Source: Chthoniobacterales bacterium (GTDB lineage Bacteria; Verrucomicrobiota; Verrucomicrobiia; Chthoniobacterales; JACTMZ01). From it: 58,333 bases of DNA. Numbering within the stretch: position 1 is the stretch's first letter; each line of letters begins with the position of its first letter. The stretch is from the NCBI GenBank assembly GCA_014879535.1, contig JACSRX010000052.1, forward strand, positions 1 through 58,333. Reading direction: 5' to 3'. Positions 33,283-50,771 of this stretch are shown piece by piece. Under the pieces are notes generated by a model, which worked only from the letters and a program-made list of their open reading frames with translations, was not told the origin of the DNA and searched no databases. The position numbers and the translations under genes are program-made.

Positions 33283-34362
33283 TCACTCCGCACGCATGAA
33301 GACCCCGCCCCCGAGCAGGCGCGGACCGTCGTAGAAGGCGCAGACCTGCCCCGGCGCGATCGCCCGCTGCGGCGCGGCAAACGTCACCCGCACCCGGTCC
33401 CGGCCGATGCATTCCACCCGTGCGCCCGTGCGCGGTGCACGGTATCGCGGGCGCACCTCGATGTCGGCGCGATCCGGCAAGGCACCCTTGGACGGACTCA
33501 GCGAGCCAACCTCCCAGCTCGCGGTGTAGAGTCCCGGGGTCTCGGGGCTGTCGAAGCCCACCACCAACTCGCGGGTGGCGCGGCGCTTCTCCACCACCAC
33601 GTAGGCCTCATGCGGCGTGTTCGAGGCGATGCCGATGCCCTTGCGCTGGCCGAGCGTGAAGTAGTGCAATCCCCTGTGCTCCCCGAGCACCCGGCCGTCG
33701 ATGCCGACGATCGACCCCGGCTCGTCGGGAAGGTATTCGCGCAGAAAGTCCTGCATGCGCACCTTGCCGATGAAACAGATGCCCTGGCTGTCCTTCTTCG
33801 CCGCCGTGGCCAGCCCGGCCTCGACCGCCTTGGCGCGCACCTCGCTCTTGAGCAGCGTCCCGACCGGGAACCAAGCGGATGCGATCTGCTCCGGCTGCAG
33901 CATCGCCAGGAAATACGACTGGTCCTTGCCGGCATCGGCCCCCTCGAAAATGGCGCGCGTGCCGTCCGGGGCCGCGCCGGTCCGTGCATAATGACCGGTC
34001 CCGATGCCGTCGAAGCCCTCCGCCCGCGCAAGATCCAGGAACACGCCGAACTTTATCTCGCGGTTGCAATAGACATCGGGATTCGGCGTCACGCCCTCGG
34101 CATATCCGCGCAGCAGGTAATCCACCACATGCTCGCGGTAATCCTCGATGAGGTTGACCACGCGGAAGGGAATCCCGAGATTCTCCGCCACGGCGCGGGC
34201 GTCGGCGACATCCTGTTCCCACGGGCATTGGCCGAGAGGATCCCACTCGGCCATCCAGTTCTTCATGTAGGCGCCCTCGATCTCGTGCCCCTGCCCGCGC
34301 AGAAGCAGGGCGGCCACGGAGCTGTCCACCCCGCCCGACATGGCGACCAGGATCCGGGCCAT
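33283..34362 (-). CDS. mnmA: tRNA-specific 2-thiouridylase MnmA
   Basis: 359 residues. It thiolates U34 in Lys, Glu and Gln tRNAs. The PP-loop is [16 protein letters not shown]. The catalytic Cys pair is in [13 protein letters not shown] (about residue 100) and GICFIG (about 197). [21 protein letters not shown] and [13 protein letters not shown] are also typical. It starts 7 bases after the btpA-like gene, so the two form a small operon. The leu promoter lies just beyond its stop. Confidence 0.96.
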
Positions 34363-34369
34363 CGAAATT

Positions 34370-35167
34370 TCAGCGCGCCGCCGCCACGGCGCGGGCCACG
34401 GCCTGCACGCGCGCCAGTTCCATCGGACCCGACCATTGGCCGCCCGCCTTCAAGGCCGAACCGACGATGAGTGCATCGGCATGGGAGAGCATCGCGGCGG
34501 CATTCTCCACCGTGACACCCGAGCCGACCACCACAGGCAGCTTTGTCGCCGCCCGCGCGGCCGCAAGGTCGGCCGCCGCAGCCTCGCGTCCTGTCGCCTC
34601 GCCGGTGACGATCACGCCGTCCGCCCCGAAAAATTCCGCCGCCTTCACGGTCTCGGCGAGACTGACATCCGCCGTGACCGCGTGGGCGGAGTGCTTCTTC
34701 TTCACGTCGGTCCACACCGCGATGCGGTCCGCGCCGATCTGCCTGCGATAGCGCAGCAGCGGTCCGGCACAGGCATCCATCCACCCCTCGTCGGCCACAT
34801 GGCCGAACACGAAAGCCTCGGCCCGGATGAAATCCAACCCGGCGGCCAGCGCCACGGCCAACGCCGCCTCGTTCGCCCCGGCCAGCACCTGCACACCGCA
34901 GGGAAGCGTCGTGGCCTGACGCACTGCGGTGCAGATGGCCGTCATCGCCGCCACCACCTCGGGCCCGACCTCCCGCCGCAGGTAGGGAAGGTCGTGCATG
35001 TTCTCAACCAGGATCCCGTCGCATCCGCCTTCAGCCAGCACCCATGCCTCCTGCACCGCCAGACGCACAAGTTCCTCCACCGCGGCCGTGTTCCCGGGCG
35101 TGCCCGGCAACGCGCCGGCATGGACCATGCCGATGAGCGCCTTGGGAGGAAGCGGGATCTGGATCAT
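34370..35167 (-). CDS. BtpA/SgcQ-family TIM-barrel protein
   Basis: 265 residues from ATG 35167 ([16 protein letters not shown]); ATG 35185 is an alternative. The family start '[16 protein letters not shown]' and the blocks [53 protein letters not shown] and [11 protein letters not shown] place it in the BtpA family. The founding member affects photosystem I assembly in cyanobacteria and others occur in sugar operons, so the role here is open. It precedes mnmA in one transcript. Confidence 0.85.
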
Positions 35168-35233
35168 CGCGCCAACAATGCACATCCCGGCGGATGTTTC
35201 ACAGGGATTTTCCGGCTCCCTCGTTCCGGAGTG

Positions 35234-38164
35234 TCAGGGCTCCAGACGGACCGCCACGCGGTAAAATCGGCCGCCGCGGCCGACCGAGGTGGCATCCGTG
35301 AAATCCTTGCGGGTGCCGTCACCGGGGAATGTGCCCCCCGGGACGCCGTCCCACGCCGAGTCGAGGCTGTCTGTGGATTGCACCTCGTAAACACGCCCGG
35401 CAATCGTGCTGAAGGACACCGTGAAGCCGGAGGTCCCGTCTCCCGCGATGGCCGTCCCGAGCGGATGCCGTCCGTTGGGCACCTTGGGGTCCCCGCCAAA
35501 AATCCATTCCTGCCCGTTGGTCAGGCCGTCACCATCAGGATCGGCCCCAGGCCGGCGGTCCGCCTCGGGTTCATCCGCCGTGAAATGCCGCGCAGCCCAG
35601 TTTTCGTAGGTGCGCGGCAGGATGGTCACCTCCACGACCGCCGGGTCGGAGTCGAACCGTGTGTCGTTGACCGTCAATTGGAACACCGCCGTCTGTGCCT
35701 CCTCCGGGTTTCCGGTCACCTGCACCACCGGATGTTCAGCCTCATGATTATCGATGATGCAGGTGGGTCCGGAAATTTGCGTCCACGAACGGGTCAGCGG
35801 CAACCCGCTGGGATTGCGGGAATCCGAGGAATCCAGCGTGATGCTCTCCCCCTTCTCCGCGACAGAGCACGAGGCCGAGGCAATGGCGACGGGCAGGTCG
35901 AGGGCGAGACTGCGCGCGTCGAGGGCGAGATATTCGTCGGCCTCGATGTCGCCGTTGCCATTGCCGTCGGGTGCCTGGCCGCTGGGGATGAGCGCGCCGC
36001 CGTTGCTGTTGCCATATGCGGCCGCGGCAAGGTGGATGGTTTCGGGGATCTCCCCCCACAGTGCGCGCATGTCCACGATCCCCTCGAGCACTCCGTCGTT
36101 GGGCGTCCCGTTCTTGGGGAGCCCGGGTGTCACGGCTTGGAACGCCACCACGTCGCCGATCACGGCTTCGCTGGAATTGAACCAGCACGCATAGCCGTTG
36201 TCGCTTTCGTCGGCAAGATAGGCATCCCACGCGGCGATGCCGCCTGCCTTGGCCCAGTTGGCGGACCGCAGGGCGCCGGGCTGTCGGCTGACATAAAGGA
36301 AATGGTCGTTGCCGTAGGCGGCATCCCGCGTGGCGACATAAAGCTGGTGCCCCCGGATCGCGGCGTGGAGACGCCCGCCCGCCGGCGAACGCACGGGCAC
36401 CGCATCGAGGGCACCGTCCATCACGAAGGAATCGGCGAGGTTGAGGTAAAGCTGGTCGATGAACGCGCCGTCCCAACTGCGCATTTCGAAGTGGAAAAGC
36501 GGACCATCCACCTCGAAGCGGCCGAGGAAGGTGGAATCATTCTTGAGGAATGCCGAATGCACCTTGCGCTCGTTGATCGGATACGTGGAACAGGTCGTGC
36601 CGCCCACCGTGAGGTAGCGGATGCCGTTGATCGGCTGGCTGCGCTCGTAGAAATGGTTGTGCCCTTGGAAGACGATCTTCACCCCCGCCGCCTCCATCAC
36701 CGGGCAGATGTAGGACAGCACCCCCGCCTGCGGCCCGTGGTTGCCCAGGCTCGTGTAGGGGGGACGATGCAGGATCACGACTTTCCAACGCTGCTGGGTG
36801 GCGGCCAGATCGGCCTGCAACCAGTCGCGGGTGGCCTCCATTTCGGCCGTCATGTTCTTGGCGAAGACCTCGGTGTCGATGACGGCGAAGTGCACGCCGC
36901 CGTAATCGAAGGAATAATTTTTCTCCTTCATCCCCGCAGGTTCGGAAGGTCCGTTCTGCGGCAGCGTGAAATACTCCTGGAACCAGTAGCCGTTGCGCGC
37001 GGGCCAGTCATGGTTGCCCAAGGCCGGCATCACCGGCGCGTAGCGCATCACCTCGGCAAACGGACGGAACCATGTGGGATCATAATCCCCGGGCGCCCCT
37101 TGGTTCTGGTTGTTGTCCCCGACGGTGAGCTGGAGGTCGGCATTGACGCCGTGAACTGCGAGACCGAGCGCCCGGTTCGGCGTCGCGTGGGTTCCCCAGT
37201 CCCCGCAGATCACCGCCCTCCACCGCTGGGACGCCGTGCGCGGTGCGCGCAGGGCGACGCCGTCGGCCAGCACGCGATCACCGCAGCGCACTCGGTAGAA
37301 ATAATCCCGTCCGTCATGGGGGACAGGCAGATGCGCGGTGTGCCGCAGGGAAAGGGCGGAAGCCTCCACGGTGCCATCCGAACAGGAAGGATCGGAGCCC
37401 CAATCGACGGCTCCATCCACCAGCGCGTCCGTGCTCCATGCCACCGTCACGCCGGTCGTCCCGGGGAGTTGCAGGAAGGGACCGCGGGTGAGGTTGACGC
37501 CTTCGTTGAGCTGGACGGAGATGAAAAAGTCGCTGCTGCCGAGCGAGGCGTTGTGTCCGGAAAATGCAAGCGTGTTCGCCCCCGCAACGAGCAGCGCCGG
37601 ATCAACATGGATGTATTCCGGCTCCAGGGGATCGGAAGTGGCGTCCCCGCAGGAAGCCTCGCGCCCTTCCGGCGCGGCGGTGGAATGCGTGATGCTTCCC
37701 GCAGGCATGTTGCGACGGGCGATCTCAACCCCGTTGAGGTAGGCGACAAATCCATCGTCGTAATCGGCAACGAGTGTGAGTCGTTGGATGGCCGATGGAT
37801 CGGAAACATCGAACACTTGGCGCAGGAACACCGAGAGGTAGCCGTTGAGCATGTCGGTGAGTTCCGTGCCCGGATAATGCGTGTAGTAGCCGTAGTAGTA
37901 GGGCTCCGGCCTCGGGGAACCGAAGACCCCTGTGTCATTGTAGCCCGGATCCTTCCACGCCACGGAACCCTGCGCCGGCGGGGAGGAACGCCCCTTGTAG
38001 TGTGTCCAATTCGACCCGGGGCCGACCAGCACCCCCGCATGGGCCGACGCCGCGAGAACGACCGCAATCGCCAAGACGGCGGAAACTCCACCCCCCCCAT
38101 GTGCACCCCCCATCGCGCGGGGACAACCGGGATCACGTCCGAGGGAGGCTGCCATCACACCCAA
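35234..38164 (-). CDS. Secreted purple-acid-phosphatase-like metallophosphoesterase, multidomain
   Basis: 976 residues with an export signal (VSAVLAIAVVLAASAHA, about 28-43). Domains in order: a beta-sandwich with DYDDGFVAYLNGVEIARRN (45-230); a PAP N-terminal fibronectin-like domain with GPFLQLPGTTGVTVAWST; the metallophosphoesterase core with GDWG (about 323), GDNN, GNHDWP (about 384), ILHRPPY and GHNHFYERS (about 501); an uncharacterised module (about 590-745) also found in the GH57-like protein at 42748-46092; a PKD-like domain; a DPDGDG Ca-loop-like segment and a terminal sandwich ending FYRVAVRLEP. Probably a secreted or surface phosphatase. Start is uncertain; ATG 38113 is an alternative. 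Confidence 0.87.
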   Translation of the reverse strand: MGVMAASLGRDPGCPRAMGGAHGGGGVSAVLAIAVVLAASAHAGVLVGPGSNWTHYKGRSSPPAQGSVAWKDPGYNDTGVFGSPRPEPYYYGYYTHYPGTELTDMLNGYLSVFLRQVFDVSDPSAIQRLTLVADYDDGFVAYLNGVEIARRNMPAGSITHSTAAPEGREASCGDATSDPLEPEYIHVDPALLVAGANTLAFSGHNASLGSSDFFISVQLNEGVNLTRGPFLQLPGTTGVTVAWSTDALVDGAVDWGSDPSCSDGTVEASALSLRHTAHLPVPHDGRDYFYRVRCGDRVLADGVALRAPRTASQRWRAVICGDWGTHATPNRALGLAVHGVNADLQLTVGDNNQNQGAPGDYDPTWFRPFAEVMRYAPVMPALGNHDWPARNGYWFQEYFTLPQNGPSEPAGMKEKNYSFDYGGVHFAVIDTEVFAKNMTAEMEATRDWLQADLAATQQRWKVVILHRPPYTSLGNHGPQAGVLSYICPVMEAAGVKIVFQGHNHFYERSQPINGIRYLTVGGTTCSTYPINERKVHSAFLKNDSTFLGRFEVDGPLFHFEMRSWDGAFIDQLYLNLADSFVMDGALDAVPVRSPAGGRLHAAIRGHQLYVATRDAAYGNDHFLYVSRQPGALRSANWAKAGGIAAWDAYLADESDNGYACWFNSSEAVIGDVVAFQAVTPGLPKNGTPNDGVLEGIVDMRALWGEIPETIHLAAAAYGNSNGGALIPSGQAPDGNGNGDIEADEYLALDARSLALDLPVAIASASCSVAEKGESITLDSSDSRNPSGLPLTRSWTQISGPTCIIDNHEAEHPVVQVTGNPEEAQTAVFQLTVNDTRFDSDPAVVEVTILPRTYENWAARHFTADEPEADRRPGADPDGDGLTNGQEWIFGGDPKVPNGRHPLGTAIAGDGTSGFTVSFSTIAGRVYEVQSTDSLDSAWDGVPGGTFPGDGTRKDFTDATSVGRGGRFYRVAVRLEP

Positions 38165-38243
38165 CAGTCGCCCCGGACCAGGGGAGTCCCAACACGGGGG
38201 ATTCTATCCAGAATCGAATCCCGCCCTCTGATGCCCCCACATC

Positions 38244-38528
38244 TCAGCTCGGAGCGGCGCAGGGATTCGCGGCGCGGCGCCGTTGGCAGCCCTCCGAGTT
38301 GGCAAACGGACACACCAGTTCGATGAGGCACAGGCCGGTGTATTGTTCCAAGTCCACCAACCGGGCCGGGGTTGGAAAATGCGCGCCTGTCTCCCAATGC
38401 CCCCATGTGCTCACGGAAACCCCGAGTTCCCTTGCCGCCGTGCTGATCTTCATCTTCCGCTCCGTGCGCCAGCGCCGCAGCGCCTTGCACAGCCAGAACC
38501 GGCGGAAAGGATACCTCTGAACAGCCAC
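38244..38528 (-). CDS. Small XRE-type helix-turn-helix regulator
   Basis: 94 residues. Residues about 16-70 fit an XRE (Cro/CI-like) domain: LRRWRTERKMKISTAARELG, then the recognition helix VSVSTWGHWETGAHFPTP and a last helix with LVDLEQYTGL. The remaining tail holds three Cys (CPFANSEGC, then NPC near the end) and is not part of the fold. It lies 48 bases after lacI in the same direction and 79 bases before the phosphatase gene, so it may regulate that gene. The ligand is unknown. Confidence 0.75.
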   Translation of the reverse strand: MAVQRYPFRRFWLCKALRRWRTERKMKISTAARELGVSVSTWGHWETGAHFPTPARLVDLEQYTGLCLIELVCPFANSEGCQRRRAANPCAAPS

Positions 38529-39635: not shown

Positions 39636-39652
39636 GCAACCTTGGTGGTGGT

Positions 39653-39665
39653 AACGATGTTCGTT
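39653..39665. promoter_or_regulatory. Candidate LacI-family operator 1
   Basis: AACGATGTTCGTT is an inverted repeat (AACGA-3-TCGTT). It begins right inside a minus-strand TTGACA (39670-39665), the best -35 candidate for lacI, which suggests autoregulation. A second, related site is at 39720. Confidence 0.45.
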
Positions 39666-39719
39666 GTCAAGGGAGGATTCCAGCGAACGTCAACGTCGGC
39701 GCTGAAATGCCGTCAAGGT

Positions 39720-39732
39720 AACGATATTCGCA
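39720..39732. promoter_or_regulatory. Candidate LacI-family operator 2
   Basis: AACGATATTCGCA matches operator 1 at 10 of 13 positions and keeps the left arm AACGA and most of the right arm. Both copies are preceded by GT, so GTAACGAT-TTCG recurs. It lies 44 bases before the GH28-like start. Confidence 0.4.
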
Positions 39733-39776
39733 AAAAACAGCTTTCGCGGTCACCGCGGCACGCCGATGTTGCGCGC

Positions 39777-42101
39777 ATGGCAACCCCTCCCCCCCCGGGA
39801 GTCCGCACGGCTCTCGGCTGTGCGGCCGCTCTCGCGCTTTCCTGCTCCCCGGCATCCTCGGCGGGATACGGCAGCTACGTGCTGAACGAGAAATTCAACG
39901 GCATGGCGGCCGACTCCGCGCCGGCCGATTGGACAACGACGGCAACCAGCGGATCGGTCGCCGTGAAGGAGGTTCCATTCGCGCAGGACAAGAGCGTCCG
40001 GATCCAGAAACTCGCCGCCAGCGGGGAATCCAGCCTGTCACGCACCTTCCCGGCGCAAGGCGGCCGCGTGGTCGTCGAGGCGAAGGTGATGATCCGGGAG
40101 ACCGCAGGCTTCAAGGCGCTTCCCTACATCTACGGTCCCACCGGCGGCGCGGTGGTTTCCGTGGGATTCCAGAACGGCCAGATCGTCCACCACAACGGAA
40201 CGTCCTTCGTGAACGTCGGCGTCGAAGCCGTCGCCGACGACTGGTATATGATCCGCATCGTCATCGACACCACGACGAACAAATACGACCTCTTCGTTGA
40301 CGGTGTCCGCAAAATCGTCGGTCAGACGGTGCGCAACGTCTCGCCGACAATCAGCCGTGCGTCCTTCTATCTGGACGGCTCCAACACGGGCACCGTGTAT
40401 GTGGACAACGTCAAGGTCTACAACGAGGCGGAGTTCATCGGCCCCCCGCCGGAACCTGTCTTAGATGTGCGCGACTTCGGCGCCACCGGCAATGGCACGA
40501 CCCTCGACACCTCGGCCATCCAGGCCGCCATCGACGCATGCGAAGGCACCGGCGGCTCGGTGTATCTGTCGAATGGCACCTTCCTCTCCGGCATGCTGCG
40601 CCTCAAGAGCGACATGACCTTCTTCATCGACTCCTCGGCGAGCCTGAAGTCCTCGCAGACAGACAACCTTTTCCCGAAGCAGAGCCCCCCGACAAACAAC
40701 AACCAGCTCCTCAACTGCCGCCGGGCACTCCTTTACGCCGAGGGTGTGAGCAACCTCTGCATCGACGGCGGGGGAAGCATCGACGGCAGCGGCATCAAGA
40801 CCTCCTCCCCCTCGTGGGTGGATTGGGGCGTCAAGGAAGCCGAAAAACCGATCAGCATCTGGGCCGTGTTGTGCAGCAACGTCACCATCCAGAACATCTA
40901 CATCCGCCTCTCGGCCATGTGGACCGTCGTCGGCATGGAAACCGACAACCTCGTGATCCGCAACCTCCAGCTCAACGTCGATCTCGAGCCCACACGCGAC
41001 GGCATCGACATCGTCGACTGCCACAACGGCATCGTGCAGGATTGCACGGTGTATTCCGGCGACGATTCCTTCTGCTTCAAGACCGGAACGCGGCGCGGGG
41101 TGGACAACTTCGTCATCCGCGACTGCTTCGTCGGCCACACCGGGGCGAACAGCTACAAGTTCGGCACGGCGAGCTACGGCGCTTTCCGGAACATCCTCAT
41201 CGAGGATTGCTACGCGAAGAACGTCCGCTATGGCGCGATGGTCCTCATGTCGCGCAACGGCGCGGAGATCGACAACATCAACTTCCGCCGCGTCGAGTTC
41301 TCCCGCGCCGGCTCGGCTTTCTACGTCTTTCTCGGGCAGCAGCCAGGCCATCCCGCGGGCGATGTGGACAAGATGGGCACGCTCAACAACGTCCATTTCA
41401 CCGACATCAAGGGCCTTGTCAGCTCCACGTGGGGCTCGCTCATCACCGGCCACCTCTACCAGAGCACGATCTACCGGATCACGAACCTGTTCTTCACCGA
41501 CTGCGACATCAGCTTTCCGGGCGGTCTCGGCTCGGTTCCCGGCCAGCCCGCCGAATGGAACAGTTCGCAGTATCCCGAGGCCAACATGTTCGGCAACCTC
41601 CCCGGTTCGGGTTACTACCTGCGCCACGTCCACGGTGTCACATTCTTCCGCTGCACCTCGACCGTCCGCAACGGTGACGCGCGGCCCGTCATCGCCACCA
41701 ATGACGTCTCGAACCACCTCTCCCGGACGGACACCGACGGCGACAGTCTCCCGAACGACTGGGAGACACTGCATTTCGGCGGCTCCACCGCCGCCGACCC
41801 GCAGGCCGACTCCGACGGCGACGGATACGGCAACCGTGCGGAATATCTCGCCGGGACGAATCCGCGCGACCCCGCGGACCGCCCCGGCCTCGTCGAGGGA
41901 GCGCGCAATGGCGGGGCCTTTTCGGCCGTCTTCCGCTCCGTGCCCGGCAAACGCTACCAGGCAGAGACTCTGGACGATCCCGGAGCCGATTCGTGGCAAC
42001 CTTTCGGCAGCATCCGCGCCGCCAGCGGGAACACGCTCACCGTTTTCGATGATTCCAACCGCGACAAACGCCTCTACCGGCTGCGCTTCCTCGAGGATTG
42101 A
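39777..42101 (+). CDS. Secreted GH28/pectate-lyase-type beta-helix enzyme
   Basis: 774 residues from ATG 39777, with a signal peptide ending near SPASSA. Residues about 25-220 form a concanavalin-like sandwich ('YVLNEKFNGM', 'VYVDNVKVYNEAEF'). Residues about 225-620 are a right-handed beta-helix that opens with the pectate-lyase superfamily motif DVRDFGATGNGTTLDTSAIQ. It has the GH28-like acidic pair set DGIDIVD and SGDDSFCFKTG, then the His in GHTGANSYKFG. The C-terminus has DTDGDSLPNDWE, DSDGDGYGNRAEYLAGTNP and a terminal domain ending LYRLRFLED. It probably cleaves a plant or algal uronic-acid polysaccharide; the exact substrate is not readable. Confidence 0.86.
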   Translation: MATPPPPGVRTALGCAAALALSCSPASSAGYGSYVLNEKFNGMAADSAPADWTTTATSGSVAVKEVPFAQDKSVRIQKLAASGESSLSRTFPAQGGRVVVEAKVMIRETAGFKALPYIYGPTGGAVVSVGFQNGQIVHHNGTSFVNVGVEAVADDWYMIRIVIDTTTNKYDLFVDGVRKIVGQTVRNVSPTISRASFYLDGSNTGTVYVDNVKVYNEAEFIGPPPEPVLDVRDFGATGNGTTLDTSAIQAAIDACEGTGGSVYLSNGTFLSGMLRLKSDMTFFIDSSASLKSSQTDNLFPKQSPPTNNNQLLNCRRALLYAEGVSNLCIDGGGSIDGSGIKTSSPSWVDWGVKEAEKPISIWAVLCSNVTIQNIYIRLSAMWTVVGMETDNLVIRNLQLNVDLEPTRDGIDIVDCHNGIVQDCTVYSGDDSFCFKTGTRRGVDNFVIRDCFVGHTGANSYKFGTASYGAFRNILIEDCYAKNVRYGAMVLMSRNGAEIDNINFRRVEFSRAGSAFYVFLGQQPGHPAGDVDKMGTLNNVHFTDIKGLVSSTWGSLITGHLYQSTIYRITNLFFTDCDISFPGGLGSVPGQPAEWNSSQYPEANMFGNLPGSGYYLRHVHGVTFFRCTSTVRNGDARPVIATNDVSNHLSRTDTDGDSLPNDWETLHFGGSTAADPQADSDGDGYGNRAEYLAGTNPRDPADRPGLVEGARNGGAFSAVFRSVPGKRYQAETLDDPGADSWQPFGSIRAASGNTLTVFDDSNRDKRLYRLRFLED

Positions 42102-42608: not shown

Positions 42609-42747
42609 ATTCCCGTGGACTTCACGGTGCCTGCGCTTTGACTCACGAACGTAAACTCAACCCGTGATTGCGCTTTCTCTGACCTGAACTTGTCGACTGT
42701 CGCCGGTGACGATGGACGGTTTGCGCGCCAGAGCAAGCCCAAATGCA

Positions 42748-45700
42748 TCACTGCACGCCGATCACGCGGTAGAATCCGCGCGATCCGGGGGTTTCTCCCT
42801 CCGGCGGCACGGCATTCAGCGGCTGGTCATCGAGGCCGCTGCCGATGACGACGCTGCCGGTGTTGGTCCACGATGCCGGACTGAGCGTCGGCGTGTATTG
42901 CACCTGGTAACGGACACCCGGCACGGTGGGCACGCCCAGGGAGTAGCCGCCGGTGATGGGCAACATGCGCACCAAGCGCAACCTGCGCGCCGGGTCGAGT
43001 CGGTCGAGGGTATCGCTCCCGGCGGAATCGCGGATGGATTCCACGGGCACCGCGAGGAATTCGGAGGGATCGAGGTTGCCGTTGGCCGGCGCGGCGGCCG
43101 GCGCCTGGGCGGCCAGCACCCCGCCATCGGCCGTCTGGTAGGAGGCGGCCGCGAGGTAAAGCGTCGTGGGCATTTCCCCGAAGGCCTCCACGAGGTCGAT
43201 GACCCCCTCGAGCACGTTGCCGGAGGAACTGGCATTGTGCGTGGACCCAGCCGGGGCGTTGAACCAGCCTCGCCACCCGCCGGTGCTTTCCTGCGCGAGG
43301 TAGGGCTTGGTTGCGGCGACGGCCATGGTGCCGGCCTTGGCCCACACCGCGGGCGCGGTCGCCGACGGCAGAAGCTGGTCGCTGATGAACAGGAAGTGGT
43401 CGTTGCCGCCCGCCTGCGACGCGAACCACGTGGCCACGTAAAGCTTGGTGCCGCGCACCGCGGCATGGATCTTCATCCCCGGCGCCGACAGCAGGTAACC
43501 CGGACGGGACTGGCCGGCGAGTTCGAACGGGGGCACCTCCACCGGCAACGCGGGGATGGTGACCGAAGCGACGGACGAGGGCGGGGAATCGCCCGCAGCG
43601 TTGGTCGCCACGACCGAGTAGCCGTAGGTGCTGGACGGAGAAACGGTCATGTCCGCATGCGAAGTCGAGGAGGCCGTGGCGATCTGCACCCCGCCGCGCA
43701 GGATCTTGTAACCGGAGGCTGTGGCCGAGGCGTTCCAGGAAAGATTCACGCGGTTGTGCGCGGCCGCCGTGGCGGACAGCCCCGTCGGCGTGGCCGGCGG
43801 CTGATCCACCGGCACGCTGTCCACCGTGATGTTCCAATCGGCACCGCCGTTGTTGTCCCAAGGCTGGCTGTTGGACCCTTCGGCGTTGCCGGTGAAGACC
43901 ATGCGAAGGACCGTCGTTCCCGCGGGCACATTGTAGGTGTAGGTCCACTTCCCGTCGGCCGCGGTCATGGCCGGACGCGGCGTGATCCGGTTGGTCCAGG
44001 CATTGGGAGCCATGTGGATGTAGACCGGCGAAGCCGAGGCGAGAGCCCGGCCTGCGGGATTGTAAGTGATTGTGACCGGCTGGCCGGCGACCGGAACCGC
44101 GGGCGAAAGCGTGACAGCAGGACCTCCGCCATCCCCCCCTCCGCCGCTGGCTGCGCCGACCCAGACATGGACGATGTCGCTGCGGGAGATGTTCCCCTTG
44201 GTGTCGGTCGCCTCGACGAAATAGTCGATGAGCACGTTGTTCTGCCCGTTGATGGCGCCCATGTAGCGCTTGGCGCGGTTGGTCGGGTCGGGCACCTGAG
44301 GCCCCTTGACCGGCGGATAGAAGTCGCCTGTCATGTCCACGGTGCTCCAAGCACCGACCTTGGCCGGATTCTGTGCGTAAAGCTCGTTGTCGTATTCGTG
44401 GATCGGATTCTCACCGTCATTGTCCACGCGCCAATGGAGCTTGACCGAGGTGAGGCCGCTGACGTCATCCACGAAGGTGAAGACGTTGAAGTTGTTCGAG
44501 GCGGGGGCCGCCTCGTTGTATTGCAGGCCGCCGGGATTGTAGATGTCGCGCTGCGGGGGCCAGATGGTCGGGCCGACCGTGTCCACGCCGGTGTGACGGT
44601 TGATCACCTTGTTGGCCTCGGTGATGGCGAGGTTGGCTCCGCGGGTGGCGTTGCCGTCCCAAGGGTTGGCGCGGTCGAAGTCCCAATACCAGTGGCACGA
44701 CGTCTCGGCCTGCAGGTAAAAATGCCATGCCTTGGCGGTGTCCGGGCCGATGCCCCAGCGGACGTCGTTCATGGAATAACTGTTCTCCAGGCTCTCCGCG
44801 TGGATCACGCGGTTGGCCGCGGCCACCAACACCGACCACGACCAGAGGTCCGGGTGCTCGCCGTCGCGCGCGTTGTTCTCCCGCCATTTGTCGAAATAGG
44901 GCGTGCCGCCGTCGATGCCCACCCACGAGCCGGGCTCGACGTGGATCACGTCGTTCGTCGGGACCGGATAAAGTTCGAGGTAGTCCTGCACCGAGGTGTG
45001 CTCGAAGTTGGGATTCGCGCGGACCATGTTGAGGAAGCTGCCGTGCTGGCCGTTGTAGGCGTCGGCATTGAGCATCCCGAAGTTGTCGCCGTCACTGTGG
45101 CAGAGCAGGAGCATCGGGCGCGCCGGGTCGTTGTTGCGGGCGATGTGCGTGCTCCACACGTTCTCGGGCTTGAAGGCGCCGTAGCCACCGCGCCCGTTCT
45201 CGTTGCCCTCGTAGCGGCCGGCAGGCACGGCGACGATGCGTTTCACAACGGGGGCCGACGGACTGCTGTTGGGATCGACGTATTGCACGTAGTGCGGTTG
45301 GTAGCCCCATGGCGCGGAGACTTTCGTCGGTGCCCAGACGTTGTTCAACTGGACCCACTGGCTGCCGATGGTCGCAGGGTCCGGGTTGAGCTGGTCGGCC
45401 TTGTTCGGGCGGATGCTTGAAGCCGGCGCCCACGGGTAATTCTGCGTCGCCCGGTCGAAATGGCCATTGTCCACGATCACCCACTCAAGCCCCTCGGCCA
45501 CGAGGGCCGGGATCATATTGACGTCAAAGGCGCACTCCGGCGGCCAGAAGCCCTTGGTGTAGGAACCGCCCGTGTCCCAGACATCCTTGTAGGCCTCTTT
45601 GTGCAGCTTGATCTGCATGCGCATCGACTCTTTCGTCGTCAGCGGCATGAGCGAATGATGGTAGGCGATGCCCACGGGGTCGAGGCGGGGGTTGTTGCGC

Positions 45701-46092
45701 ACCGTGCGCAGGCCGTTGCGCCCCCATCGGTAGTGCTGACGCCAGCCCGTCCCGTAGAGGCCGTCCATGTTCTCCATCAGGGAACCGGAAAAACTCACCT
45801 GGACGCCGGCGTGCGGCAGGTCGGTGCCTTGCTGGACGGCATTCTTCGGCCATTCGCCATAGGAGCCCGTGCGTGCGTCATGCACGCCCTTCACGCTGAA
45901 ATTGAAGCGACCGGCGCCATCCGTCGCATTCACCGATTCGTAGGGGTAATAGATCGGCTGGTGCATGTGCCACAGGTAGGTCACATGGATCGGGTTTTGG
46001 GAGACGGCAGGGGCCGTGAATCCGGCGACGAATAAACAAAAAGCGGCGCTCATCATGGCGCCGCGGGAACGGGCGGGGGTTTGGGGGAGCAT
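42748..46092 (-). CDS. Secreted GH57-like glycoside hydrolase with CBM25-like, Fn3 and shared modules
   Basis: 1114 residues; ATG 46092 has AGGGA 5 bases upstream. A signal peptide is followed by the GH57 N-terminal motif HMHQP (HQP at 44-46). GFWPPECAF gives a candidate nucleophile Glu186, and LLLCHSDGDNFG candidate acid/base residues Asp334/336. After the catalytic part come a beta domain (to about 670), a CBM25-like starch-binding domain (AGQPVTITYNP to PWDNNGGADW), an Fn3 domain (ATPTGLSATAAAHNRVNLSW), a module shared with the phosphatase at 35234-38164 (about 865-1020), and a terminal domain ending FYRVIGVQ. An alpha-glucan substrate is inferred from GH57 plus CBM25. It lies 81 bases after the second GH57-like gene. 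Confidence 0.82.
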   Translation of the reverse strand: MLPQTPARSRGAMMSAAFCLFVAGFTAPAVSQNPIHVTYLWHMHQPIYYPYESVNATDGAGRFNFSVKGVHDARTGSYGEWPKNAVQQGTDLPHAGVQVSFSGSLMENMDGLYGTGWRQHYRWGRNGLRTVRNNPRLDPVGIAYHHSLMPLTTKESMRMQIKLHKEAYKDVWDTGGSYTKGFWPPECAFDVNMIPALVAEGLEWVIVDNGHFDRATQNYPWAPASSIRPNKADQLNPDPATIGSQWVQLNNVWAPTKVSAPWGYQPHYVQYVDPNSSPSAPVVKRIVAVPAGRYEGNENGRGGYGAFKPENVWSTHIARNNDPARPMLLLCHSDGDNFGMLNADAYNGQHGSFLNMVRANPNFEHTSVQDYLELYPVPTNDVIHVEPGSWVGIDGGTPYFDKWRENNARDGEHPDLWSWSVLVAAANRVIHAESLENSYSMNDVRWGIGPDTAKAWHFYLQAETSCHWYWDFDRANPWDGNATRGANLAITEANKVINRHTGVDTVGPTIWPPQRDIYNPGGLQYNEAAPASNNFNVFTFVDDVSGLTSVKLHWRVDNDGENPIHEYDNELYAQNPAKVGAWSTVDMTGDFYPPVKGPQVPDPTNRAKRYMGAINGQNNVLIDYFVEATDTKGNISRSDIVHVWVGAASGGGGDGGGPAVTLSPAVPVAGQPVTITYNPAGRALASASPVYIHMAPNAWTNRITPRPAMTAADGKWTYTYNVPAGTTVLRMVFTGNAEGSNSQPWDNNGGADWNITVDSVPVDQPPATPTGLSATAAAHNRVNLSWNASATASGYKILRGGVQIATASSTSHADMTVSPSSTYGYSVVATNAAGDSPPSSVASVTIPALPVEVPPFELAGQSRPGYLLSAPGMKIHAAVRGTKLYVATWFASQAGGNDHFLFISDQLLPSATAPAVWAKAGTMAVAATKPYLAQESTGGWRGWFNAPAGSTHNASSSGNVLEGVIDLVEAFGEMPTTLYLAAASYQTADGGVLAAQAPAAAPANGNLDPSEFLAVPVESIRDSAGSDTLDRLDPARRLRLVRMLPITGGYSLGVPTVPGVRYQVQYTPTLSPASWTNTGSVVIGSGLDDQPLNAVPPEGETPGSRGFYRVIGVQ

Positions 46093-46103: not shown

Positions 46104-46131
46104 AAATTAATCACGAACCCACGCAACGCAA
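46104..46131 (-). promoter_or_regulatory. Possible promoter of the first GH57-like gene
   Basis: On the minus strand TTGCGT (46131-46126) and TAATTT (46109-46104) are spaced by 16 bases, directly after the intergenic hairpin. It would allow transcription apart from the upstream GH57-like gene. Confidence 0.35.
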
Positions 46132-46161
46132 GTCGCGGCGAAACGAAAATCCGCCGCGACT
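46131..46161. repeat. Perfect 10-base inverted repeat between the two GH57-like genes
   Basis: AGTCGCGGCG and CGCCGCGACT are separated by 11 bases. On the minus strand it lies just after the stop of the upstream GH57-like gene, where a terminator or an mRNA-stabilising stem would be. There is no T-tract on either side. Confidence 0.55.
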
Positions 46162-46173
46162 GCGGAATCAATC

Positions 46174-49100
46174 TCAGGGCACCAACCGCACGCGGTAGAA
46201 GTGCCGGCCGTCGGCCGAATGGGTTGTCGAGGTGGTCGGTCCGCCCGCGGTGATGTCGGCACCGACGTCGGACCAGCCGCCTTCGGACAGCGACGGGCGC
46301 GCCTGCAGGCGGTATTTTTTGCCGGCCACGGACGACCACGTGATCGTGACGGTGCCGTCTTCGTTCGCAGTCTGACGCACTTCGAACCGCGAAGCCGGTT
46401 GGGAAGGATCGGTGCCGAGGGCATACTCCTCGGCGCTGGTGAACCCATCGCCATCCGGATCGTCCGCCGCAACCCAGTCCGCCGGATTCGGGAAGTGGCT
46501 CTCCCACCAATCATTCGGGATGCCGTCGGTCATTCCGCCTGCGGTGCGGGTGACGGTGGGTGCATTCGTCGTCGCGGTGCCGGAGTCGTTGACGGGCGCG
46601 GTGAGCGACATGGCACCGAGGTAGACATTGTAAGGAGTGTCCGGTCCGGCGCTGTTGTTCGAGGCGACGACCTGCGAGATGGCGCCCCCCGCGCCCAGGG
46701 TGCCGGTGAAAATGTTCGTGCCGACCGTGAGTTTGTAGGCGTTCGACGCCGTGAGCTCGAAGACGGCATCCAAGCCTTCGGACGTGTAATGGATGGCGGT
46801 CTGGCGGGCATTGGTCGCATCGGAGACGCGGTAGAATGTCTCACCTCCCACGAAGTAGAACGCGAAGCGGTTCGTGTTCGACGCATCCGCCAAGGCGAAT
46901 CCGGCGCTGCTGCCGGTGTTGATCCAGTTGTTGTCGAAGCGGAGGTTGAACTTCGAGCCGACCGCCATCGGGGCGTTGAAGGTGCGCCGCGCGGTGGAAA
47001 CGCCGCCTCCGTTCGCCCAGAGGCCGAATCCGCTGCCCAGGGCGGTGCTCATGTTGCTGCTGGAATTGCCGGCCAGGAAATGCCCGGAATTGGTGGTGGA
47101 GGCGAGAGTCCAAGGACCAAACCCGCTGCCCCCCGAGGAGCCGTTGGTCCAGCCTCCGCCGTAGGAGGCGTTCGTCGGCGAGTCCACCGCGTTGGTCTGG
47201 TCGCCGGCGAGCAGATAACCCGCGGAGAACGTGACATTGTTCGAGCCGCTGCCGAGCGGAACGTTCACTGTCCAGTCCCGGGCCCATGCGAAGGACCCGC
47301 CCTGGCTGGTGAGCGGATTCGTCCAGACGATCCCGTTGGTCAGCGAGGCGCCGGCCTGTCCGGTGAAGGTGTAGGATGTCGTGTCGGCAGCGACCGTGGT
47401 CGCCCCGGACGGCCCGGTGACGAGCAGCGCGGTCGGATTCAGATCGATGAACGCAAGCGTGCGGCCCGTGATGCCGGACGAGGGGGAGGCATCGCCCGCG
47501 GAGTTCGACGCCACGATCGTGTAGGTGTATTCGGTGTCCTCGGAGAGGCCGTTGTCATCGTAGGAAAGGTTTCCGGTGCTGCCGACCTGGTTGCCGTTGC
47601 GGAAAACCTTGTAGTTGGTCGCCCCGGAAGCAGTCGGCCAGCTGATGCGGATCGCGGACAGCGAAATGCCCTGCGTTGTCACGCCCGTGACCTGCGAAGG
47701 CAGCGTCGGAACCTCGCCGTCATCCTCGACGAAGACATGCTGGATGTCGGATTTGCTCACGTTACCCCGCGCATCCGTCGCCTCGATGTAGTAGTCGAGG
47801 AGCTTGCCGCGGAACCCGGGCATGTTGCCGCTGGTGATCTTGGCGAAATAGTAGTCCGCGACTTCGTTGGTCGGCAGGAAGTAATCGATCTGGCCGTTGG
47901 CTGCGGCCGCATTGAGCGCCTCGCGCGTCTTGGGCAATTCGCGCTTGGTCATCGGAATCGACACCCATGCCCCCACCTCGCCGCCGCCTGCGTAAGTTTC
48001 GTTCTGGTTGCTTGCGAGGGGGTTCATGCCGTCGTTGTCTATGCGCACCTTGGCGGTGACGCTGGAAACCCCCGAGAGATCGTAGGCATGCGTCCAGATG
48101 TAGAATTCGGACGGCATTTTCTTGAGGAAGCTGGTGTTGCCGCCGGGGATGCTGTTGAACCAACCGAACGTGTAAGCGCCCGGGTTGTAGGGGAAACGCT
48201 GCGGCTTGAGGACGGTCGGCGGCGTGCGGTCGTTGTCGCGGCGCGTCTGCGTCATCCACGGCTGGAGCTTCTCGATGGCCCGGCGGGTGGCGAGACCCGG
48301 TTTGACTTCGTCGTCATTGCCGAGTCCGCCGTAGTAATTGAAGCCGGAGTCGAGCCCCTTGAGGTAGATGTGCCATGCCAGTTCGACGTCGTTCGGACTT
48401 GTCCATGTGCCGTTCCAATCGTAGGGCGCCTGGATCTTCCACGCCTCGACGCTGCCCCCCTCGTCGCGGAGGATCTGTTCGGCGGTTTCACACCAGTTCG
48501 CGCCGGCCATGAGTGGGGCGTAGCTGTAGAATTTGAGCGCAAATCCCGGCGTCTCCATGTCGATCTGGGTCCCGGGGTAGGTCGTTATCCCGCGGTTCGC
48601 GACCGTGGCCACCGGCGGCTCGATCCACTTGAGGAAATACGGCGAGCCGTAGTCCATCTCGGGGAAAATCCATGCACCATCCTCGATGTGGGCCATCGGC
48701 GCGGCCGCCCCGTGGGCATTGACGAAGTCCTGCGGCGTCGAGGGACGGTAGCCGGCGCCGGCTGCCTCGCTGAACAATTGCGGCGTGGCCTCCATCCAGG
48801 AACTGGAACCTCCACCCCACGCGTTGTCGCCGTCGGTCGCGGGCATCACGATGACGGGGCGGCTGGAATTGGTGGCGAACGGCGAAATGAACGAGCCGAT
48901 CTTGCCGGTGCCCTCATTGGCGTAGCCGTAGCGGTAGCTCAGGACGTCGTCCGATGGCACCGCGATCATCGATTTTTCCGCACCTGTCTCGGGGTTGACG
49001 TATTTCACCCGGTGGAGCTGGTAGGCATAAGGCGACACATTCCATGCCGCATTGCCTGGGTTCGGCTCGCTATACCACCATCCATTGGTGACCACCGGTC

Positions 49101-49905
49101 CGATCTGGTCGGCTTTGTTGGGAGGGCTGGAGTAAATGTTGTAGGATCCTTCAGGGTTGGCTTTGGTGTTGTAGGAAGGCGACGTGCGGCTGATGTGGTG
49201 GCTTGCCACGATGACCCACTCGTATCCCTCGTCCACGAGCACATCGATCAGGTGGCGTGAGTAAGCCATCTCGGTGGGGAAGAAGCCCTTGGAATGGTCG
49301 CTGAGGTCGCTGTTGCCGTTCCATGCCTTCCACCATGCCTGTTTGAAGATCTGGAGTTCCTTGCGGAAGACCGACTTGGGAAGCAGGGGTGCAAGTGAGT
49401 GGTGATAGGTGAAGCCGACAAGGTCAAGGCGACGCGCCCCCGCAGGAGTGTGCCACCCTCGGGCCTCACGGTTGCCGTTCCACCAGTTGGCGCCGTAGCC
49501 AAGCTGGTTCGCCGAACCGAGTTGGCGGATGTTGTCGATGAGCGAACCGGAATAACTCAATGCAAAGCCGCCGTTGCTGTTCACATTGGCCAAGGAATTG
49601 CGCGGGCCCGCCTGGTAGGCGTTCCTGCGGTCGTCGAGTCCGAAGATGTCAGTCAGGTTGTTCTCAGGGTGGTTGGCCGGACTGAGGCCGCCATAGTTCT
49701 GGCCAGGCTTGAGGACGATGGAGTCCCATGCGTATTGCACGCGGCTGGTCTGGGAGCCGTTGCTGTTCCATTCCGGCCAGTAAATCGGCTGGTGATTGTG
49801 CCAGAACCGCGACACATACACGTTGGAATTGGCGGCAACCGGGTGGACCATCAGCATCAGGCCAAGGAGGGAGCCGAAAACGGCGGGAATGTGACGGGAA
49901 CTCAT
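46174..49905 (-). CDS. Secreted GH57-like glycoside hydrolase with Fn3 and jelly-roll-like domains
   Basis: 1243 residues with a signal peptide (GSLLGLMLMVHPVAANS). The GH57-type motif WHNHQP (HQP at 38-40) is followed by YHHSLAPLLPK, a candidate nucleophile Glu212 in GFFPTEMAY and candidate acidic Asp358/360 in VMPATDGDNAWGG. These match the motif order of the neighbouring GH57-like protein although the sequences have diverged widely. Then come a beta domain ending in SKSDIQHVFV, an Fn3 domain (RISWPTASGATNYKVFRNG), a sandwich (about 905-1097) related to the small protein at 49948-50724, a DPDGDGFTSAEEYALGTDP segment and a terminal domain ending FYRVRLVP. No ribosome site precedes ATG 49905. 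Confidence 0.8.
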   Translation of the reverse strand: MSSRHIPAVFGSLLGLMLMVHPVAANSNVYVSRFWHNHQPIYWPEWNSNGSQTSRVQYAWDSIVLKPGQNYGGLSPANHPENNLTDIFGLDDRRNAYQAGPRNSLANVNSNGGFALSYSGSLIDNIRQLGSANQLGYGANWWNGNREARGWHTPAGARRLDLVGFTYHHSLAPLLPKSVFRKELQIFKQAWWKAWNGNSDLSDHSKGFFPTEMAYSRHLIDVLVDEGYEWVIVASHHISRTSPSYNTKANPEGSYNIYSSPPNKADQIGPVVTNGWWYSEPNPGNAAWNVSPYAYQLHRVKYVNPETGAEKSMIAVPSDDVLSYRYGYANEGTGKIGSFISPFATNSSRPVIVMPATDGDNAWGGGSSSWMEATPQLFSEAAGAGYRPSTPQDFVNAHGAAAPMAHIEDGAWIFPEMDYGSPYFLKWIEPPVATVANRGITTYPGTQIDMETPGFALKFYSYAPLMAGANWCETAEQILRDEGGSVEAWKIQAPYDWNGTWTSPNDVELAWHIYLKGLDSGFNYYGGLGNDDEVKPGLATRRAIEKLQPWMTQTRRDNDRTPPTVLKPQRFPYNPGAYTFGWFNSIPGGNTSFLKKMPSEFYIWTHAYDLSGVSSVTAKVRIDNDGMNPLASNQNETYAGGGEVGAWVSIPMTKRELPKTREALNAAAANGQIDYFLPTNEVADYYFAKITSGNMPGFRGKLLDYYIEATDARGNVSKSDIQHVFVEDDGEVPTLPSQVTGVTTQGISLSAIRISWPTASGATNYKVFRNGNQVGSTGNLSYDDNGLSEDTEYTYTIVASNSAGDASPSSGITGRTLAFIDLNPTALLVTGPSGATTVAADTTSYTFTGQAGASLTNGIVWTNPLTSQGGSFAWARDWTVNVPLGSGSNNVTFSAGYLLAGDQTNAVDSPTNASYGGGWTNGSSGGSGFGPWTLASTTNSGHFLAGNSSSNMSTALGSGFGLWANGGGVSTARRTFNAPMAVGSKFNLRFDNNWINTGSSAGFALADASNTNRFAFYFVGGETFYRVSDATNARQTAIHYTSEGLDAVFELTASNAYKLTVGTNIFTGTLGAGGAISQVVASNNSAGPDTPYNVYLGAMSLTAPVNDSGTATTNAPTVTRTAGGMTDGIPNDWWESHFPNPADWVAADDPDGDGFTSAEEYALGTDPSQPASRFEVRQTANEDGTVTITWSSVAGKKYRLQARPSLSEGGWSDVGADITAGGPTTSTTHSADGRHFYRVRLVP

Positions 49906-49947
49906 AGGGGGATGGACTCTGGCGATATCCAGTTTAGACCGCGAAAC

Positions 49948-50724
49948 CTACGGGGCGTTGCGGCTCAACTGGAAATTATTGAAGAAAAAATCGTGGGTCT
50001 CGGCATTGCGGTTGAAGAACGCGAGGCTGTTGATCTTCGCCCCCGGCTCGCCGCCGAACTTGCGCCCTTCGAGAAGGCGGCGCGATTGGTCGCGCAGATT
50101 GATCACCTCAAGGTCGTAGGTGTCGGCATCCACCACGGTGACCGTCAGAGCCAAGGCCTCCTGCGTGATGGGAATGCCCGTGTCGAACTCCGTCTCGGAA
50201 TCCGTGATCAGATAGTTCGGCGAACCCTCGCGGGCGAAAAACCGCAGGCGTGCGCCGACATTCACATCGTCCACAGAGCCGTTTGCATTGTCCGTGCGGT
50301 AGCTGACCCCGACCTCACCGGGTGCGGGATCGTCACCGTCGCCCTTCTGCTCGAAGGGGCCGTGCAGGATGTCGAAGGAAAAGTTGTCACCCGGCTCCAG
50401 CGGAACCGCGATGCCGCGGAAGGCCACGGACTCCTCGTAGGCGCGCCCGTTGGAGAAAAGCGCGAAGGCCCGCCCCGTCGCGATCGGCCCGACCATCGGG
50501 TGATCGCCTTTGGAGGCCAGATAATGCCCCGCGAAACTCCCCTCCCCGTCGGACTTGCTGATCATCTTCCACGCGAAAAAGCCATTGTCCCCGCCGGACC
50601 CGTCGTTCCACCCCCCTCCATACATGCCTTGGTCGGCGTCGTCGTCACCGATGTTGACCTGATTCGACGCCACGGCAGCGGATGCGCAGAGGCAGAGGGC
50701 GAGTGTTCGGGGGAGAAGCCTCAT
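49948..50724 (-). CDS. Secreted stand-alone beta-sandwich protein related to a GH57-linked module
   Basis: 258 residues. A signal peptide (MRLLPRTLALCLCASAAVAS) is followed by one domain. Its hallmarks are MYGGGWNDGSGGDNGFFAW, AGHYLAS, RAFALFSNG, PLEPGDNFSFDI, VVDADTYDLEVINL and a final FFFNNFQLSRN. The same order (YGGGWTNGSSGGSGFGPW, SGHFLAG, FGLWANGG, VGSKFNLRF, NAYKLTVG, VYLGAMSL) occurs in the C-terminal half of the next gene. It is probably a glycan-binding or accessory domain, but no known family was recognised. It has a strong own promoter and lies 42 bases before the GH57-like gene. Confidence 0.75.
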   Translation of the reverse strand: MRLLPRTLALCLCASAAVASNQVNIGDDDADQGMYGGGWNDGSGGDNGFFAWKMISKSDGEGSFAGHYLASKGDHPMVGPIATGRAFALFSNGRAYEESVAFRGIAVPLEPGDNFSFDILHGPFEQKGDGDDPAPGEVGVSYRTDNANGSVDDVNVGARLRFFAREGSPNYLITDSETEFDTGIPITQEALALTVTVVDADTYDLEVINLRDQSRRLLEGRKFGGEPGAKINSLAFFNRNAETHDFFFNNFQLSRNAP

Positions 50725-50742: not shown

Positions 50743-50771
50743 ACAATACCGGCGCAACGGAGGGCTGTCAA
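50743..50771 (-). promoter_or_regulatory. Strong promoter ahead of the GH57-like cluster
   Basis: On the minus strand a perfect TTGACA (50771-50766) and TATTGT (50748-50743) are spaced by exactly 17 bases. The -10 box ends 18 bases before ATG 50724, leaving about 11 untranslated bases with no ribosome-binding site. Confidence 0.65.

Follow-up and report, generated by a model that had tools for sequence, protein, structure and literature searches.

Background

The SusE and SusF proteins of Bacteroides are lipoproteins made up of tandem starch CBMs. Structurally, the domain studied here comes closest to accessory domains of larger enzymes. One of them belongs to BT_1020 of Bacteroides; the literature searched assigned it no role. 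Another is the CBM-like domain of the sialidase Amuc_1547 from Akkermansia muciniphila, a member of the same phylum as our organism. The ligands studied for Amuc_1547 are NAD+ and oligosaccharides, and the loss of its CBM-like domain abolishes stimulation by oligosaccharides (PMC12018670).

The capture of starch and glycogen by abundant freshwater and marine Verrucomicrobiota is poorly known, and the literature searched held nothing direct on verrucomicrobial starch lectins. GH13, GH57 and GH77 are enriched in metagenome-assembled genomes of freshwater Verrucomicrobia from Lake Mendota (PMC5615132), which fits an alpha-glucan diet.

The current work concerns a contig of 58,333 nucleotides from a Chthoniobacterales bacterium with a genome of the freshwater Verrucomicrobia type (JACSRX010000052.1, assembly GCA_014879535.1); this whole stretch of DNA is called the window below. 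It encodes a small protein with a lectin-type domain (the free protein) next to a GH57 protein that carries a related domain (the fused copy). We observed homology of the two domains, their division into two subfamilies, genomic association and co-localisation of the free gene with alpha-glucan genes, and a conserved promoter sequence. With moderate confidence we favour a reading of the free protein as a secreted lectin-type component of the Verrucomicrobiota uptake machinery that has no catalytic role, binds alpha-glucan and acts in trans; its ligand, its binding and its lack of catalysis are what we infer.

The locus

The free protein (258 aa; 49948-50724, minus strand) was delimited as an open reading frame and is accompanied by orthologues and an AlphaFold2 model, in which about residues 22-256 form a single lectin-type beta-sandwich. 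Its N-terminal part (about residues 1-19; 50668-50724, minus strand) is hydrophobic with AxA-type sites, and export of the protein is predicted from the sequence. A sequence check found no lipobox in the window's free protein; a VAAC string within the hydrophobic stretch occurs in one of 12 free-family members. Pfam yielded no family for any of the 12 at E up to 10, NCBIfam no profile match to the free protein, and the PDB sequence search with the free family was empty. No known sequence family in these three collections covers the free protein.

The multidomain GH57 protein (1243 aa; 46174-49905, minus strand; Pfam and homologue alignment) begins 42 bp after the free gene. Its Glyco_hydro_57 match (residues 35-237; 49195-49803) scores 38.2 bits against the curated Pfam cut-off of 21.2, which places the protein in the family. 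GH57 enzymes have a catalytic Glu in CSR-3 (the nucleophile) and a catalytic Asp in CSR-4 (the proton donor) (PMC6037648). Homologue alignment provided candidates for both, Glu212 (codon 49270-49272) and Asp358 (codon 48832-48834), which occupy the expected motifs and are invariant in all seven aligned GH57 homologues. Glu212 was aligned with a solved GH57 structure, and Asp358 is assigned by motif only. The protein is predicted to act on starch-like sugars.

Further along the same strand lie a fibronectin type III-like stretch (residues 737-813; 47467-47697; E 8e-5, just below the Pfam cut-off), the fused lectin-type sandwich, and a TSP3-like stretch (a sub-threshold Pfam match) together with a C-terminal module recognised by sequence (46177-46578). 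The C-terminal module also ends other secreted proteins of the same group. The initial annotation had put the fused sandwich at residues 905-1097; the domain is indeed there, and alignment, profile-profile comparison and model set its limits at residues 902-1105 (46591-47202).

A second GH57 protein (1114 aa; 42748-46092, minus strand; Pfam and locus comparison) has a different C-terminal module and does not adjoin the pair of free gene and GH57 gene in the other genomes of the genus that were read. This module (from about FELAGQSRPGYLLSAPGMKIHAAVRG) is found on the first GH57 protein in genomes G006, G010 and G104. The sequences suggest that GH57 paralogues have exchanged their C-terminal modules.

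Several other reading frames lie on the plus strand. By eye, the product of 39642-42101 resembles a secreted protein of the GH28/pectate-lyase type with a sandwich-like N-terminal part, and its C-terminal module looks to be of the same kind as in the GH57 proteins. For the 1328-aa ORF at 34340-38326, Pfam gave no match at E 0.001. The long ORFs on the strand opposite the GH57 genes (46201-49260, 1019 aa; 42706-45420, 904 aa) probably arise as by-products of the high G+C content of the coding sequence.

A sigma-70-like promoter, TTGACA-17-TATTGT, precedes the free gene (50743-50771, minus strand; pattern search and genus comparison). It is the sole match to this pattern in the window, with 0.02 expected. 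All seven genus members compared keep TTGACA, the TA start of the second hexamer and the spacing between them, and the flanks vary. The GH57 gene is followed by a perfect 10-nt inverted repeat with a loop of 11 nt (46131-46161, minus strand), possibly the end of the transcription unit. With the conserved promoter upstream and the inverted repeat downstream, the free gene and the GH57 gene plausibly form a two-gene unit.

Homology and predicted fold of the free and fused domains

The free protein and the sandwich of its GH57 neighbour are homologous over nearly their full length and have the same predicted fold, in agreement with the initial annotation. For this single pair the BLASTP result is modest (E 0.037, 198 columns, 25% identity). 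The Smith-Waterman score is 136 versus 37 +/- 6 for shuffled sequences, i.e., 17 standard deviations above, and none of 2000 shuffles scored as high. The free protein as a query against its own genome found the fused stretch at E 2.3e-6, and the free-family profile matched that stretch at E 4.3e-16. Profile-profile comparison gave a probability of 99.7 and E 9.7e-26 over 180 columns. The near full-length alignment, the shuffle test, the genome search and the profile-profile comparison together make the similarity real. The motif order noted earlier needs one small correction: the element written as A(D/N)(T/A)Y(D/K)L reads ADTYDL in one copy and SNAYKL in the other. Nearly invariant across both groups are D28, Y35, W52, G66, R103, G139, G167, D175 and Y203, and the free clade alone conserves E97, K127, D131, R221 and Q252, which the fused copies lack.

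The AlphaFold2 model of the free family was built from an alignment of 12 free orthologues (pLDDT 86.3, pTM 0.85), that of the fused domain from six fused domains (pLDDT 83.1, pTM 0.85). HMM-HMM comparison and structure prediction had been proposed as checks that would speak against the relationship if profile similarity were missing or the folds differed; they returned significant similarity and a common fold. Both models are predicted two-sheet antiparallel jelly-roll sandwiches, with Z 13-18 to many members of the concanavalin A-like lectin/glucanase fold, and this fold is predicted for both domains. The top match is the same for the two models, the accessory domain of BT_1020 (5mqr, residues 413-614; Z 17.3 for the free and 18.6 for the fused model). 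It is followed by the C-terminal region of Amuc_1547, whose CBM-like domain (8hls, 8axi; residues about 385-597) matches both copies at Z about 15, and then by L-type lectins and GH16 enzymes. Matches of the fused copy include the CBM40 of a Vibrio sialidase. The 50 structural matches listed contained no starch-binding CBM family that stood out.

The fold by itself does not establish function. Since it includes enzymes such as GH16, it was counted against a non-catalytic reading, and the free protein could be a glucanase or lyase of this fold with alpha-glucan or a different polysaccharide as its substrate. The structural matches at Z 13-15 do include GH16 along with further sandwich hydrolases and lyases, and D28, R103 and D175 are invariant acidic and basic residues. 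We regard an enzyme as quite improbable, because accessory domains within larger enzymes give the best structural matches, and the same three residues recur in the domains carried by complete GH57 and GH13 enzymes, which have no need of a second catalytic site. Furthermore, a GH16-like catalytic motif is not conserved in the family. The ExDxxE pattern is absent from 11 of the 12 free-family members, and its single occurrence, EMDAE in L035, falls in a variable loop and looks like chance; GH16-like catalysis was rejected for the free family. The missing GH16-type pattern and the presence of the related fused domain on GH57, and on the adjoining GH13 in genome G266, were counted in favour of a non-catalytic binding role.

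The window's genome contains exactly three copies of the domain at E 0.01. The third forms the C-terminus of a 650-aa protein on another contig (C93; L002:1366-3318), which Pfam assigns to CCP_MauG at E 5e-40. The peroxidase copy compares with the GH57 copy at about 47%, and the free protein is more distant from both. In this di-haem cytochrome c peroxidase a C-terminal repeat-type module precedes the lectin-type sandwich; a redox enzyme is an unusual carrier of a CBM-like domain. CBM domains have been reported on other verrucomicrobial cytochrome proteins (PMC5615132).

Two subfamilies of the domain

In a maximum-likelihood tree of 60 domains, 31 free proteins form one clade (support 100/99) that spans Chthoniobacterales and Opitutia. 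The window's fused copy belongs to a clade of eight fused domains from GH57, GH13 and di-haem peroxidase proteins (support 100/97). The window's two copies do not group together, and the branches that separate them have 100/99 support. The initial annotation took the free protein for a stand-alone copy of the GH57-linked domain; since the tree puts free and fused domains in separate supported clades, the free gene did not arise by recent copying of the domain in the neighbouring protein, and an origin by recent duplication was rejected. By their sequences, free and fused domains are two old subfamilies.

The INDEPENDENCE of free and fused copies is seen in genomes where each is present without the other. 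In genomes G006, G010 and G104 the free gene lies directly upstream of a GH57 gene whose product lacks the fused sandwich and has, in its place, the module carried by the window's second GH57 protein. Conversely, the GH57 proteins of G080 and of G266, a member of another class, possess the fused domain, and the flanks covered contain no free gene; in G266 the GH13 next to GH57 also carries it. Judging by this distribution, fused and free copies have been gained and lost independently, and the idea of two obligatory halves was rejected on the same grounds.

Some side observations concern the same sequences. In another class (L143:1011-9493) adjacent GH57 and GH13 proteins both end in a fused sandwich at about residue 1010-1230. 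In large secreted proteins of other classes the sandwich occurs two to three times in tandem beside YDG or TSP3-like parts (L135:4686-7334, L136:4912-7353, L144:1-4793, L133:1153-5442). When 46174-50724 of the window is compared with the syntenic pairs in L031 (7876-13215) and L109, the free proteins are only 38-40% identical, and the catalytic parts of the adjoining GH57 proteins 71-82%. Either the free protein diverges much faster, or GH57 has been transferred between lineages.

Genomic context of the free gene

Free orthologues are found in Chthoniobacterales and Opitutia, mostly within alpha-glucan loci, with GH13 enzymes, GH77 amylomaltase, a maltose-type MFS transporter or GH57 as neighbours. 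In the window's genus the free gene is present in eight of 11 genomes, the window's own included. It directly precedes GH57 in seven of the eight carriers, and in the eighth (G002) GH57 fragments lie at a contig end. The same order recurs in two genomes of another family (G033, G104).

Outside the genus the usual companions of the free gene are GH13, GH77 and the transporter rather than GH57. By Pfam assignments, the order free-MFS-GH13 was found in four loci (L032, L060, L061, L106), MFS-GH13-free-GH13 in L063/L035, and pullulanase-MFS-free, with LacI also present, in L034. In L030 a GlgX-like GH13 lies near the free gene. In Opitutia the free gene is followed by GH77 amylomaltase and then MFS, with GH13 upstream; Pfam was applied to the L075 genes, and the remaining GH77 genes were identified solely from having the same N-terminal sequence.

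Nine of the 13 Chthoniobacterales genomes outside the genus have a GH13 gene no more than 5 kb from the free gene, where GH13 density predicts 0.48 (P about 7e-11 with relatedness ignored; genomes within one family are not independent). Without the two GH57-linked genomes the count is seven of 11 (P 2e-8, relatedness again ignored). In four of the 13 genomes (G020, G057, G067, G079) no recognised alpha-glucan gene was found within about 10 kb, and in Opitutia the free gene of G539 also has none nearby. As the relatives lie mostly in starch or maltodextrin gene clusters, they probably constitute an unnamed family of starch-handling helper proteins.

GH57 was rejected as an obligate partner: beyond the genus, most free genes lack a GH57 gene in their surroundings, and G028 carries its free gene on one contig and its GH57 orthologue on another. 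A rival reading makes the free protein a scaffold, i.e., an enzyme-binding partner that organises GH57 and GH13 proteins or the envelope without sugar binding. Such a role would account for the tight pairing and the conserved promoter with GH57 in the genus, the residues specific to the free clade could form a protein interface, and the concanavalin A-like fold is also known in non-lectin proteins. We nevertheless consider a scaffold unlikely, because the partner enzyme differs by lineage (GH57, GH13 or GH77), and such variation suits a shared substrate more than a fixed partner protein.

Wider relatives of the domain occur on the di-haem peroxidase, a PEP-CTERM protein and large YDG, HYR or BACON proteins. 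Those on the peroxidase and the large proteins imply that the domain as such is not bound to alpha-glucan. With this breadth, and with free genes away from glucan genes in several genomes, the free protein might be a generic secreted surface or adhesion module whose alpha-glucan link is the shared ancestry of a few old clusters. The clade of 31 free proteins stands apart from the peroxidase, PEP-CTERM and repeat-protein copies, however, and the order and type of neighbours vary between families yet remain within alpha-glucan metabolism. The GH13 excess given above argues the same way, with the same reservation about relatedness, and a generic module seems to us an improbable account.

Proposed role of the free protein

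Homology, the predicted fold and secretion, the operon-like layout and the conserved position of the free gene beside alpha-glucan enzymes fit a sugar-binding protein that acts in trans. According to this proposal, the free protein, exported beyond the inner membrane as predicted, would bind maltodextrins or starch chains there and would keep the bound glucan near the enzymes and the transporter encoded beside its gene. The partners served in trans would be GH57 in the window's genus and GH13, GH77 and the maltose-type MFS permease elsewhere. The fused GH57 domain, a distant cousin, may do a similar job in cis as a CBM-like appendage that is exchangeable for other modules.

The initial annotation had proposed a substrate-presenting subunit in trans. 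The homology, the predicted lectin-type fold, the predicted secretion and the operon-like layout stand; the origin as a stand-alone copy and GH57 as the set partner do not. On the sequence evidence the trans-acting idea thus survives in general form, without the details of a copied GH57 domain and a GH57 partner. The present finding is also somewhat broader: a conserved free lectin-type family of alpha-glucan loci that has no name.

The free protein is a concrete and easily expressed candidate for glucan capture, encoded with a permease and glucan enzymes, and its gene is a marker of alpha-glucan loci in genomes that lack annotation. For the wider domain, found on amylases and a peroxidase, this would be a first functional hypothesis.

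Comparison with known systems

The accessory domain of BT_1020 is the best structural match; it differs in being embedded in a large glycosidase and has 11-16% identity to our domains. The CBM-like domain of Amuc_1547 is likewise accessory to a glycosidase, and it differs by its 8-11% sequence identity, its sialidase context and its occurrence in fused form only. CBM40 and L-type lectins (ERGIC-53, legume lectins) have the concanavalin A-like sandwich that is predicted for the free and fused domains and are themselves sugar binders, but the sequence similarity is below recognition.

SusE and SusF are likened to the free protein by proposed role only, namely non-catalytic secreted binding of alpha-glucan in a starch locus; the free protein differs from them in its single sandwich and in having neither a lipobox nor a lipoprotein signal. 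We tentatively suggest, as a possibility somewhat short of even, that the free proteins are secreted stand-alone lectins of the concanavalin A-like type, an undescribed family dedicated to alpha-glucan capture whose genes share operons with a maltose-type MFS permease and GH77, GH13 or GH57, and that they are the Verrucomicrobiota counterpart of SusE/SusF or of CBM-type starch-binding proteins.
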